Part shown: piece by piece, positions 29,430-35,853 of the stretch | Position numbering within the stretch: the stretch's first letter is position 1 | How the letters are laid out: every line of letters starts with the position of its first letter | Assembly: GCA_903813345.2 (NCBI GenBank) | Contig: CAIIXF020000007.1 | Span: forward strand, 28,881,564-28,945,563 | Direction of reading: 5' to 3' | Length of the DNA: 64,000 bases | Origin: Owenia fusiformis | Taxonomy: Eukaryota > Annelida > Polychaeta > Sabellida > Oweniidae | Notes under the pieces: model-generated | Told to the model about the DNA's origin: nothing | Database searches by the model: none | What the model saw: only the letters and a program-made list of their open reading frames with translations | Translations under genes and position numbers: made by a program

Positions 29430-29930
29430 CATAATATTAAATACATATATTGCACTAAATGAGAGTAGCATGTTGCATATTGTCAAAAATTACAATAAAT
29501 ACAAATATCGCACTAAATGTGAATTGTATCATGCATATGGTCGAAGACTGTTATAACAATAAATTCATATATTGCACTTAATGTAAGTAGCATGTTGCAC
29601 TATGGTCAAAAATTACAATAAATATAAACATTGCACTAAATGTGAAATACACAATGCATCGGTTGAAGACAAATATTACAATAAATACATGTATTGCACT
29701 AAATGTGAGATGCATATTGCATGATAAATACATATATTGCACTAAATGTAAGTAGTATATTGCATATGGTCAAATATTACAATTAATATGAATATTGCAC
29801 TAAATGTGAAATACATAATGCATATGTTTGAAGACAAATATTACAATAAATGCATATATTGCACTAAATGTGAGATGCATATTGAGTAATAAATACATAT
29901 ATTGCACTAAATGTGATTTGCATGAGCAGT
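29430..29930. repeat. about 60-bp tandem repeats in the LINE 3' region
   Basis: The block ATATTGCACTAAATG recurs about nine times (near 29448, 29506, 29567, 29627, 29692, 29735, 29796, 29856, 29904). It is joined by AATAAATACAT and by alternating linkers, which gives a higher-order unit of roughly two repeats. It lies downstream of ORF2 on the LINE's coding strand. Repeated 3' UTRs occur in other non-LTR elements. Confidence 0.8.
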
Positions 29931-30119: not shown

Positions 30120-31571
30120 TTATAGCCTATCAATATTAAGAGATCTCTTATTGCACATATTATAAACTAAAGCTCCTAATGGTCTTTGGAGTGAAGTACA
30201 ATTCATAATGGAGACAAAAAGAAGTGTAGAATTGGCTGATGTTACATCTAAATAAGGCAATTTCTGTTTAACATTTTCATAAAAATCACATCTTAGATCA
30301 TCATAATGACTACATTCTAATAAGAAATGCTTTTCATCTTCAATACAATTCATGTCACATAATAAGCATTTCCTTTCGTGTAATGGTATACCTGTGTAGC
30401 GCCCTGTTTCAATTGCTAAGGGTAAAGTACCAGTTCTGAATCTAGCGAGTGACCTACGGTGATGCTTTGGTAGGGCCAAATACCCTTCCTTGCAAACACC
30501 ATATTTGTACAGTCTATATTGCCTCAATTTATTGCCATTAATTTCATTATTTCTATCATCCCATATGTTATGGATAAATTTATCAGAATTTCGAAGAGAG
30601 TTAGTAAACTGTTTTAAAATGTCCTTGGTATGACCAGTGAAATTTATATTACATGTATTTAACATTGAATTAACTTTAAAGTCCCAACTGCTTTTCCGTT
30701 TAATGGACCATTCATGTATTTTAAAATTCAGCCTATTCTGATTCATGGACTTCAGTTTAATGAACAATCTAGCACATTCCACCTTTTGTTTTAAATGTGG
30801 AGTGTCCCATCCGAGATCTCCTCTAACAGCCTCATTACTAGTGCGTTTGTTTACACCTAGAAAGAACTTGCCAGCTTTATTTTGAACATTGTTCAGGCAT
30901 TGATGTTGGTTGAGGCCAAATATAGATGAACCATAGTTTAGTATAGGCTGGACTAAAGAGTCATATAGCTTGTTGTAAACTGCGAACTCCATACCCCCAG
31001 TTTGCTTGTATTTGCTGATAATTACACTCAGGGCTCTATTTGCCGATTTTGCAATTTCTCTGGCAGAGTGTGTTGAGTCCACATGCTCTTGGAGCCAGAT
31101 CCCCAGATATTTATAAGTGTCTGTATAATCCAGATCAAAGTCCCCACATTTAAAAGCAAAGTCTGACCTAGGATGTGATTTTGGGCGATAATGCACTATT
31201 TTAGATTTTCGAGGGTTAATTAGAAGTCTCCATTTGCGGCACCATTCATGTAGAGTGTTTAACATCTGTTGTAAGTTATCAGCTGAGCTTGCAATAAGCG
31301 CTATGTCATCAGCATAAAGAAGGATGCCTATGTTCTCGTCCTCCATTTGTATTCCACATTGTAGACTGTTAATGTCGGACACTAGATCATTCACATACAC
31401 TGAAAATAATGTCGGGGATAGCAGACAGCCTTCCCGGCAGCCATTGCTTACGTTTACTTTTGGAGATAGTAGACCATTTATGCGAATGTTACATGTCACA
31501 TCTTCATATAGGGATTGAACTGCTTTAAAGATTTTGCCTTTGATGCCAATCTTATTGAGTTTATACCATAG
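30120..31571 (-). CDS. LINE ORF2, downstream half (reverse transcriptase palm, thumb and CCHC tail)
   Basis: This is the second part of the LINE polymerase, separated from its first half by the nested transposon. It reads from the WYKL next to motif A through LYEDV and GCREGCLLSPTLFSVYVNDL to the catalytic YADD in ILLYADDIALIA. A thumb/connection region follows, then a C-terminal CLLC with EDEKHFLLEC, a CCHC-like motif of non-LTR polymerases. The stop is at 30120. No internal stop or frameshift is seen. The 31616 ATG of the apparent open frame lies in the inserted TIR and is not a native start. In the live element this domain makes cDNA from the nicked target. Confidence 0.85.
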   Translation of the reverse strand, partial: LWYKLNKIGIKGKIFKAVQSLYEDVTCNIRINGLLSPKVNVSNGCREGCLLSPTLFSVYVNDLVSDINSLQCGIQMEDENIGILLYADDIALIASSADNLQQMLNTLHEWCRKWRLLINPRKSKIVHYRPKSHPRSDFAFKCGDFDLDYTDTYKYLGIWLQEHVDSTHSAREIAKSANRALSVIISKYKQTGGMEFAVYNKLYDSLVQPILNYGSSIFGLNQHQCLNNVQNKAGKFFLGVNKRTSNEAVRGDLGWDTPHLKQKVECARLFIKLKSMNQNRLNFKIHEWSIKRKSSWDFKVNSMLNTCNINFTGHTKDILKQFTNSLRNSDKFIHNIWDDRNNEINGNKLRQYRLYKYGVCKEGYLALPKHHRRSLARFRTGTLPLAIETGRYTGIPLHERKCLLCDMNCIEDEKHFLLECSHYDDLRCDFYENVKQKLPYLDVTSANSTLLFVSIMNCTSLQRPLGALVYNMCNKRSLNIDRL

Positions 31572-31819
31572 CACTGGGGATGAACTGGAAACGAGGGAGG
31601 TTTTGCCTCGTATCAAAATGGCGGCGCGTGAAAAAATTTCATTAGGTAAGATTTTAGATTTTTACAATTTTCGTGCTTTTATCCTTGAAATTAAAACTTA
31701 ATATTTGGCAAGTAAATAGTTTATAAGTTCCGGTTTTATAATATGATTGCAAATTAGAAATCAATACAGACATTGCTGCGATATTTACATTTCAATTCTC
31801 TCACTTAGGAAACGAGGCA
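31572..31819 (+). repeat. left terminal inverted repeat of the nested transposon
   Basis: Matches 33508-33754 in inverted orientation. It contains a mirrored copy of the gene's first exon on the plus strand (ATG at 31618-31620, 28 coding bases, then GTAAGA at 31646), pointing inward. I find no coding exon on the plus strand for it to join. Confidence 0.9.
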
Positions 31820-32583
31820 CCTGTCTACATTTTGTAACAATGAAACGAGGCAATGTTTTACTTGCAACGAGGCAACTATTCATTCTGTGATAGTGTCTAC
31901 ATTTAATGATCTTATTTCAACCGTTCTGGTCACATACGACCGATTACGTTTTACACGATATACATGATTATATATGTAAGAGTTAAAAAGAATAACCATA
32001 TTGTTAAAATAGTCACGTCTCTTTCCAAAAGTATCTTACACTATATCTTTTAAATCAAAGGGCAAAGTTTATGAAACGCGAATAAAGTTACCCATATTTG
32101 ATCATACTCATCCTGTTGTGTACATAGTACGTAGGAAGGTTAAGCTACACGTTTTTAAGAGAAGTGTACGTAAATGTGTAAAATTGCAATCTCCATGGGA
32201 TTATTTCTAGCCTTCATTCATCATTGTCTTTATTTGCCTAAATGATTACAAAGGTATCAGAAAAATTGTTTTATTAGGTCTTCGTATACCAATCCATAAG
32301 TAAACAATAGTTCCCGGGGTCACAATATTAAACGTTTATGTTCATGTTTTTTAAAATAAATATAGCTTTATAGCCACTTGATTAACAGAATAGACGTAAT
32401 CAGTATACACGATTTACATATAAGTCGACACTGTGTTGTCATGGGGAGGCGGTGTGAATGATATTTTCATGTGTTTCTTACCTAAGATAGCGACCTATAT
32501 CAAGCAGAAGATGAAGTGAGATGTTGCCCTCCAATGCTCCACTTGCAATGTTATTCAACACGGATATAAAATCTGATGATCTA

Positions 32584-32589
32584 TTTATT
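32584..32589 (-). terminator. AATAAA signal after the nested element's gene
   Basis: AATAAA on the minus strand about 45 bases after the stop codon at 32633-32635. It fits the 3' end of the small gene in the transposon. Confidence 0.5.
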
Positions 32590-32632
32590 TTCTGCATTTT
32601 TTCAACTACTCGGGGAATTATTGTTTTGGGAA

Positions 32633-33708
32633 TTATTGATCATCGTCGAGATCACCGTCTGGATCATCGTCGAGACCATCGTCATCAGGGTAATCAATTG
32701 TTGGTTCATCATGCAATTGTATAGATCCATTGGACTGCTCATTTACAAAATCAGAATTTGAGATGTTTACACCTGAAAATGAAAATAAAGAAAATGCCAT
32801 TACTATAAAGAAATATATCTGATAGCAGCTTATACTGCTTCATGTACATGTAGAGCGGGATGTAGAGGGACCCTGGTTTAGGGCACATTAATAACTCCTT
32901 ATATGCATACCTCGTACAGAGTAGTCAAAATAATTTTACATTTCTGGTAATTCATAACTGTTTGCAATCAAGTATAAAACATTTACAAGTTTTGCGACAT
33001 CAGTTAAAAGGAAATAAACGCCCATGTGCGCCTTTATAAAGGGGAACATTCGCCCAAAGGCATACCATATAGAAACTCAGTTGCTATTAACCAACAAAAC
33101 ACAATCAAACTGTTAATAATTTGAATATTTATTTACTTGATTCTCTCTCGATCCGTCGTTTAATTCTCAACTGCATATCAGAATTTATCATCACAGTATG
33201 CCCTTCCTTCTTAAGCGTTCTTAACGTTCAATGGCAACGCCAAAATGATGAGACGTGTATAATAAACCTGTTTTCTCATCTAACGTTCGTTTCCGTACAA
33301 AGAGATTACCATCATGTTGTTGCATCATATGGAATACAATATCAGCAACGTTGTCGTTTCCTGTGTTACAGAAATAGCATTTGAACAGGGACGCTTCTTT
33401 TTGTAGGCCCCGTTCTGTAATAAAAACAAAACATTTTTAATTAAATATTGTTGCCTCGTTTCATTCTTAAGAATGCTATATAGCTGCCTCGTTTCCTTGA
33501 GAAACATGCCTCGTTTCCTAAGTGAGAGAATTGATATGTAAATATCTCAGCAATGCCAGTATTGATTTCTAATTTGTAATCATATTATAAAACCGGAACT
33601 TATGAAGTATTTACTTTCCAAATATTAAGTTTTAATTTGAAGGATAAAAGCACGAAAATTGTAAAAAACAAAAATCTTACCGAATGAAATTTTTTCACGC
33701 GCCGCCAT
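32633..33708 (-). pseudogene. Small three-exon gene in the nested transposon: C2H2-like zinc finger with acidic tail (one frameshift)
   Basis: Exon 1 is 33708-33681, with the ATG inside the TIR, reading MAAREKISF and followed by the donor GTAAGA. Exon 2 is 33414-33137, after TTTTTATTACAG, with donor GTAAAT. Exon 3 is 32772-32633, after TTTTCATTTTCAG, ending in TAA. Phases agree at both junctions (1/2 and 1/2). Exon 2 contains CYFC followed by HMMQQH, spaced like a C2H2 finger, then a basic stretch (KRRIER). Exon 3 ends in an Asp-rich tail. In exon 2 the frame stops at 33223-33221 and resumes one base out of step from about 33226 in an open frame to the donor, so this copy appears to carry a 1-bp deletion. 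I do not recognise the family. It could be a DNA-binding accessory protein or the end fragment of a transposase. Exons are inferred by eye, without transcript evidence. Confidence 0.6.
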
Positions 33709-33754
33709 TTTGATACGAGGCAAAACCTCCCTCGTTTCCAGTTCATCCCCAGTG
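33508..33754 (-). repeat. right terminal inverted repeat of the nested transposon
   Basis: Inverted match of 31572-31819. It carries the presumed promoter and first exon of the element's gene: CAAAATGGCGGCG surrounds the start codon and resembles the YY1-type start-site motif known from animal promoters. Confidence 0.9.
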
Positions 33755-35853
33755 CATAGGCAGTCTCGATTAACACTCGAGAATGCCTTAGTTGCGTCAA
33801 TGTAGCAAATAAAAGTATCAAGCTTAGAAAGTTTCCTATTATTGATGATTGAGTATACACTGTGAACTTGTTCTTGACAACCACGTCCCTTGCGAAAGCC
33901 CCCTTGTTCATCATGAATAAGGTTATTGTCCTCAAGGAATTGAGTTAGGCGCTTGTTCAAAATATCAGTGTAGACCTTGCAAGGCACAGATATTAATGTA
34001 ATGGCACGATAGTTCAGAGGATTACATGGGTCTCCATCTTTATATATTGGGTGTATAATACCCTCCATCCACTGACTTGGCACAGTGCCAGAGTTAAAAC
34101 AGAGTACCATAATTCTGTGTAACATGGTTATACAAAGTGGATTTTTCAAAGCCTCGGCTGGTATAGAGTCAATTCCTACAGCTTTACGAACTTTGGCCCT
34201 ACCGACTGCCTCTACAACCTCTTTAAATGAAATATCTTTATTTATGTCTAAATTATTGTCAGTAACATTACCTTCTATATTGGCTACTTGTTGTTTTATA
34301 TATTCTAAGTGTTCAGAGTCAAACATAGGATTATTCTGAGCGGATGAATATAATTTTTCATATGTGTCAGCCCAGTGGTTCAGAACTAGCTGTTTATCAT
34401 ACACCAATTCACCAGATTGATTTTTCATTGTCCACGGAACATCTTTGGTACGCTCGTTTGCTATTCCTATTTTCCCTATGTATTTCCAAAAGTCCTGTGA
34501 ACTGGATGATTTGTACAGATCAAATAGATGGTCTTGTTCTTGCTTCTGATATCTGCGCTTAGCTTTCCTTAGACTTCTATCAAAACAACGCCTTTCAATA
34601 CAATAAGTTGCTTTGAGACATTGTCTTTTCGCTGTATCTTTGCATCGTATCCATGTTTGTTCAGCTTTTTGAACCTTATCCCATAATGATTGAAGCTCAG
34701 CACTCCAATAAGGTTTTCTACATGATTTAGAACGTTTGTGGGTTGGATTGGTTTGCTGGGGTATAGGTTCACATAAACGGTCCATTTCTGTTGACACTGT
34801 TTTAACAAATGTGTCATAAAGAGTTTTTATTTGATTGACAGATACTTCCTCATTTGTTATCCTATCTATTGTTTCCATTATTTGCCGAGAAAGTTCTTCA
34901 TTTGAAAGGAAATCACCTGTGATTCCATTTGTTTTATATCTTTTAGGTGGCTGTACTAAAGGTGTTTCTGCATCAATCATTCCATCCCAATTGTATACAG
35001 ATTCAGTGGAATCCTGCAGATATTTCAGAGTGCATGTCAAGATAGAGTGATCGGGAAGTGCTGTAGGGGCAGTGAGATTATAATTGTCAATAATGGTTGT
35101 CATCCGATGAACTTTAAAATTTTCATAATTTTCAAGAGATTCCTGTGGACAACACATATAGTCCACCACTGAGCGTCCTTTTTGAGAAATACATGTAAAA
35201 TCATTGTTTTCCTTGTTATAGCGACCATTTAGAATGCATATGTTGCTATCAGTTAAAAATGTTAGGAAGCTTGATTTGTGACCATTTTCTTGTGTGTCGA
35301 GTATATCTCTTTCACGTACATGGTCGATTCCTTCAATGTAGTCAGTATTCATTCCGATCCTAGCATTAAAATCGCCCATTATACAAAGATCATTAGCTGT
35401 ATTTTGGTAAACATAAAAACTTTCGGTGATTTTTTCAAAGAATTGTTCAGAATCAGTGTCACGTGTAGACTTCGAGACTGGGGGAAGATACCCTGAGCAA
35501 AGCACTATATTATAATCCGAGTGTTTCGAATTTAGGCGAATCCAGATTATGTCCTGAGTATTCTGATCAAGGATTTCACAGGTAAATAGCAGTAAAATAG
35601 AGTTTTTAACTAAAAATCCAACACCTCCTGATCCTCGTCTGGCTTGTGCAACAGTATTTCGATTATTTCCAAACCATGTGTAATCAGATATATCCAGGTT
35701 CTCATTTTTCCGAAGAAAAGTTTCATTGACACTTAAAATATCAATATCCATGTTGGCAATTACTGCTTTTCTAAATTGTGAATTGTCATTTTCATACCGT
35801 GAAAAGCCATTAACATTCCATGTGCCTAGGTTAAGTCGACACCGGCCGTCCCC
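33755..35853 (-). CDS. LINE ORF2, upstream half (AP endonuclease and start of reverse transcriptase)
   Basis: The frame begins right after a TAG at 35854-35856. The endonuclease starts with LGTWNVNG, upstream of the first ATG (35751), so that ATG is not a full-length start. Further EN motifs follow in order: VNETFL with the catalytic Glu, GGVGFLVKN, CSGYLPP, DFNARIG, SVVDYM and LPDHS with the catalytic Asp-His. RT motifs then appear: YRAITL, HDEQGGFRKGRG and ICYIDATKAF with the motif A Asp, ending at NRDCL where the nested element interrupts. The product nicks target DNA and primes reverse transcription. With the other half and one duplication copy it totals 1,182 codons including the stop. 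Confidence 0.85.

Follow-up and report, generated by a model that had tools for sequence, protein, structure and literature searches.

The window, by which we denote the whole stretch of 64,000 nucleotides of Owenia fusiformis DNA analysed here, harbours a transposon with a small spliced gene in its interior. The question raised by this locus is whether that gene is a passenger or a part of the transposon itself. The original prediction considered a cargo or accessory DNA-binding protein on the one hand and the remains of a transposase which has lost its catalytic exons on the other, and put the element forward as a candidate for an undescribed system.

The element and its insertion site

The transposon spans positions 31572-33754 (2,183 bp). 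Its ends, CACTGGGG, belong to terminal inverted repeats (TIRs) of 248 bp which are 95% identical to each other (left, 31572-31819, plus strand; right, 33507-33754, minus strand), and it is flanked on both sides by CATAG as target site duplication (TSD; 31567-31571 and 33755-33759). The sharp borders, the long TIRs and the 5-bp duplication were hence correctly predicted, apart from the TIR length, which had been given as 247 bp. The element sits in a minus-strand, reverse-transcriptase-like frame (30372-34959; YADD motif recognised by eye), which runs through the insertion site without interruption when the element and a single TSD copy are removed. Fusing the flanks with a single TSD copy yields one frame without any stop in the 800 codons examined. 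Since the frame is restored in this way, the insertion is real and precise, and it is probably recent. Without the element, this reverse-transcriptase-like stretch possibly represents a young retrotransposon. Elsewhere in the window, at 29500-29930, AT-rich imperfect direct repeats of 64-96 nt (TTGCACTAAATGTGA...) are present at a spacing of 58 to 229.

Copies of the element in the genome

A search for further copies with the same TIRs, which had been suggested as a check, was run on the genome of 498 Mb in 525 contigs. It returned 97 forward and 94 reverse occurrences of the 25-base TIR end CACTGGGGATGAACTGGAAACGAGG (at most 2 mismatches, whole genome; none in the control). The search with the whole element gave at least 121 matches, 40 of 307 candidates having been scored. 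We read 22 distinct copies, selected for the quality of their match or for their length, and found perfect 5-bp TSDs in 18 of them; the duplication agrees at four of five positions in two copies (L009 and the copy on contig C12 described below), at three in L015 and at two in L005. The copies vary in length mainly through internal deletions and nested repeats. Upon opening the long copies in search of an intact transposase, their extra length turned out to look like nested repeats, with reverse transcriptase in L009 and L019 and Gypsy-like frames in L018 and L030 recognised by eye (the Pfam match of L009 to RVT_1 stays below the cut-off). With its constant 5-bp TSD, its many copies and, in the window copy, broken frames with a weak finger in place of an intact transposase gene, the element has the properties of a non-autonomous TIR transposon.

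Copy L009 contains, within exon 2 of the gene dealt with in the following section, an insert of 563 bp (L009:5162-5725) which has inverted ends and is bordered by TTAA on either side, and a stretch 94% identical to it is found in L013. A reading in which the window copy lacks an intron present in L009 was rejected, the additional 563 bp being flanked by TTAA and absent from the corresponding exon of L027, a distant relative of the gene.

The gene inside the element

The gene is encoded on the minus strand. Its start exon (33681-33708, ATG at 33708) comprises MAAREKISF plus one nucleotide, is located inside the right TIR and is directly followed by the donor G/GTAAGA; a mirror copy of start codon and donor is present within the left TIR from 31618 onward. 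Exon 2 (33137-33414), a single exon preceded by the acceptor TTACAG, encodes a C2H2-like finger and a basic stretch. Exon 3 (32482-32772), preceded by the acceptor TTTTCAG, encodes an acidic stretch followed by one that is 55% identical to L027. The exon phases agree on those copies which are open at these places. The 3' end of exon 3 is a splice donor, and the exon following it is missing in the window copy. Of the predicted three-exon gene, start exon, donor, acceptors and phases therefore hold, while an open frame in the window does not, as both exon 2 (frameshift near 33222) and exon 3 are broken. A small change near 32636-32640 brings the Asp-rich stretch, which is present as predicted, to an early stop; of three copies compared (L009, L012 and L015) all read past this position, one of them meeting a later stop. 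The AATAAA at 32584-32589 (minus strand), presumably the one taken for a poly(A) signal just behind the gene, lies within exon 3 of these same three copies. The finger, CYFC..H..H, is recognisable as described, its Pfam support (zf-C2H2_2, E 0.0014) remaining below the cut-off. Judged from its sequence, the spliced gene does exist in outline, but the window copy of it is dead.

The right ends of 20 of the 22 copies were compared, L022 and L024 having been dropped by a length filter. The ATG is kept in 19 of the 20, and both the donor and the AG of the acceptor in every one. Such preservation might be taken as a sign of working cargo, that is, of a small expressed gene for a DNA-binding protein which is useful to the element or its host. 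Signals in or near a TIR may, however, persist because they are needed for transposition, or simply by the youth of the copies. Moreover, the frame of exon 2, disrupted in the window, can be read to the end of the exon in no more than five of the 20 copies; in the remainder the exon is truncated, interrupted or has a broken frame. The 29 distinct changes in exon 2 (20 copies, 75 to 288 bases each) comprise 19 nonsynonymous and 10 synonymous ones compared with 21.4 and 7.6 expected neutrally, the expected values being given without a significance test. This appears close to neutral, with no clear indication that selection acted while the 20 copies spread, so that maintenance of an open frame, by which the prediction was to be judged, is not borne out. 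Considering also that the TIR includes both the start codon and the first splice donor, the gene is probably not cargo, and we regard a functional passenger as highly improbable.

Full-length relatives of the gene

Using the protein encoded by exon 3 as query, 11 matches were obtained, nine of them in eight copies of the family and two in distant loci on contigs C11 and C3 (54% identity). The relative on C11, L027, has a 1,221-codon open frame followed by a further exon; the window gene is 31-42% identical to it in exon 2, in addition to the similarity in exon 3 mentioned above. The greater part of the long exon of L027 can be aligned with L038 and L039 (29-31%), both of which match the Pfam YqaJ model above the cut-off (9e-6 and 1.3e-8, respectively); YqaJ is below the cut-off in L047, and L027 is unmatched. 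In L027, L038 and L039, a nuclease motif made up of D and a subsequent ExK can be recognised by eye. All told, about seven loci carry a C2H2-YqaJ gene with open exons, besides decayed ones, of which L051-L053 were used in the motif and end searches only. In the protein of the relatives, a C2H2 finger is combined with a nuclease domain resembling YqaJ and with a C-terminal domain in which D, DxxH and E motifs occur. By eye, (F/Y)DGQ is found in six of six, DxxH in five of five and ExxF in seven of seven of the sequences which cover the respective place.

None of the relatives scanned matched a transposase model of Pfam; for the C-terminal domain of L038 and L039 there was no such match up to E 10, a threshold to be read with the fact that the HMMER filters drop most weak matches. 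PDB searches with the C-terminal domain remained empty or, in the case of the profile search, returned one irrelevant weak match and no relevant chain. A likeness to P elements can be seen by eye, as some relatives contain DxxHLLxxxR where a P-like protein of the same genome has DVPHLLKTSR. Yet, the C-terminal profile scored no better against the P elements of this genome than did the reversed control, one of the two weak, non-significant alignments lying on the DxxH motif, and the relatives that were scanned have no THAP or TNP-like Pfam match. P elements furthermore produce a TSD of 8 bp. Since there is no relevant Pfam or PDB match and the P-element comparison does no better than its reversed control, the D, D, E motifs seen by eye lead us to a motif-based proposal of a catalytic role for the C-terminal domain.

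A link between the window family and these relatives is provided by the copy on C12, which is about 41 kb long (16807113-16848111) and contains, on going from the right end to the left end, first the finger exon, then the acidic exon and finally a further exon that is 41% identical to L027. The start codon of this copy is changed and its left TIR is incomplete; the nuclease part was not found in it by tblastn, and no second instance of the further exon was found in the family of the window element. That three exons follow one another in the proper order from one end to the other argues for a native gene of the transposon.

The transposon end of L027

The start exon of L027 agrees with that of the window element in its phase and in 15 bases at the donor, and in both the distance from CACTG to the donor amounts to 74 bp. 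When the two ends are aligned in this register, 44 of 92 positions are identical, compared with at most 38 in 799 other registers. The 283 bp adjoining the CACTG of L027 gave at least 70 matches at many places, with 95-99% identity (40 of 744 candidates scored), which often form inverted pairs about 25 bp apart. Genome-wide, 217 forward and 212 reverse ends of this type were counted (none in the control), showing that the end of L027 is a TIR. Seven pairs were read and proved to be elements of about 540 bp, with a 5-bp TSD in six of them and one fitting 6 bp. These MITEs (L055-L061; compared with L027:6390-6672) consist almost entirely of two head-to-head 250-bp TIRs (CACTGCTACC), and their arms are 97-99% identical to the end of L027.

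No left TIR was found for L027 in the 11 kb examined beyond the gene (C11:19839000 to the gene), nor did we find any copy that combines both TIRs with a full-length gene. Scans for TIRs and TSDs around L027, L038, L039 and L028 were not clearly above control, the flanks of L038 and L039 measuring 0.8 to 3.4 kb. The first yielded four weak candidates for L027 (control 1), none for L038 (control 2) and one for L039 (control 0). In the second, the best scores were 13 for L027 (shuffles 12-13), 12 for L038 (11-12), 12 for L039 (10-11) and 10 for L028 (10-11). A candidate 7-bp duplication around L027 failed to extend. The L027 gene is flanked on either side by inverted arms which begin with TACAGGGTGACCGG and are about 390 bp long (L027:6752-7164 and L036:501-880); these arms (TACAGGGTGACC) were taken to be other repeats. 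Beside the gene, L054 (C11:19839000-19846499) contains several frames of repeated RFSMCCSGTIVRRSGISPGCCG units, the last array of which runs into L036.

These data bear on a further explanation, according to which a transposon that is moved by an unrelated transposase, such as a Transib- or RAG-like one, captured the 5' portion of a C2H2-YqaJ gene from the host, its TIRs having later grown to take in the captured start exon. In its favour, the full-length relatives are single-copy, have long open frames and lack a clear two-sided TIR; a 5-bp TSD and ends starting with CAC are, according to PMC7204232, common to Transib and RAG-like transposons. Against it stand two TIR families with the same start-exon design and distance, each joined to the C2H2-YqaJ gene family, so that capture would have had to take place twice in equal register. 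We therefore consider capture of a host gene unlikely. That the gene is native to the transposon is in turn suggested by the start codon and donor lying in the TIR, by the equal design of the start exon in L027, and by the CACTG of L027 being a transposon end with hundreds of occurrences and short elements of its own.

Comparison with known systems

According to PMC7204232, the TIR consensus of protostome RAGL transposons begins with CACTWMC. The window TIR matches its CACT and differs in the letters that follow, the TIRs found here continuing as CACTGGGG or CACTGCTA. The likeness to Transib and RAG-like transposons comprises the 5-bp TSD and the TIR starting with CAC; in contrast, the gene is C2H2-YqaJ and not RAG1 or Transib. 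A search of the genome with PF12940 (RAG1) gave no match; no control genome matched either, making the control uninformative.

ISL2EU of the PHIS superfamily is likewise a DNA transposon encoding a protein with a YqaJ exonuclease domain; according to PMC4482050, this protein is encoded there by a second ORF, next to that of a THAP/DDE transposase, and the duplicated target is AT. Here, by contrast, YqaJ is part of one large gene together with the finger and the C-terminal domain, it is detected in L038 and L039 and absent from the window copy, and the TSDs of both TIR families measure 5 bp instead of AT.

With MITEs and Ds-type deletion derivatives the window element shares the retained TIR and subterminal regions, the deleted interior and the large number of copies. 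It differs from them in that the start exon of the source gene lies in the TIR, and in that its source group appears undescribed: no transposon group with a C2H2-YqaJ gene was apparent among the open-licence PMC papers listed, a search that does not extend to Repbase. Within that scope, the suggestion of an undescribed family is uncontradicted.

Proposed origin and implications

The window element is in our view probably a non-autonomous deletion derivative of a group of transposons which encode a C2H2-YqaJ protein as their own gene. It would be an internally deleted TIR transposon copy with CACTG ends and a 5-bp TSD, moved by cut-and-paste with the protein supplied in trans, and the gene inside it would be the remains of the transposon's own gene rather than cargo. 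This gene starts in the right TIR with its start codon and first donor and runs leftwards via the finger exon and the acidic exon; in the full-length relatives it continues into the YqaJ (lambda-exonuclease-like) nuclease domain and the C-terminal domain, whose D, DxxH and E motifs we propose to form a DDE-type catalytic domain. The C2H2-YqaJ protein would accordingly be the transposase and its C-terminus the catalytic part. Of the two functions originally predicted, the remains of a transposon gene without catalytic exons are supported by a start codon in the TIR and by relatives that add the nuclease and C-terminal domains; the cargo or accessory protein is disfavoured for this copy by the broken window frames and the near-neutral changes. 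With regard to rank, we see about even chances that CACTG ends, 5-bp TSDs, long TIRs with start codon and donor, and a C2H2-YqaJ-DDE-like protein define an undescribed superfamily of animal cut-and-paste transposons. The YqaJ nuclease may process the ends during transposition; we know of no such end-processing nuclease role for eukaryotic transposases.

The remnant in the window may thus lead to an undescribed transposon group with a C2H2-YqaJ protein. If this holds true, about two hundred short and about ninety longer repeats of the genome would gain a likely source gene, poorly annotated animal proteins combining YqaJ and C2H2 would become candidate transposases, and the fusion of nuclease and transposase would offer a new arrangement in which to study the handling of excised ends.
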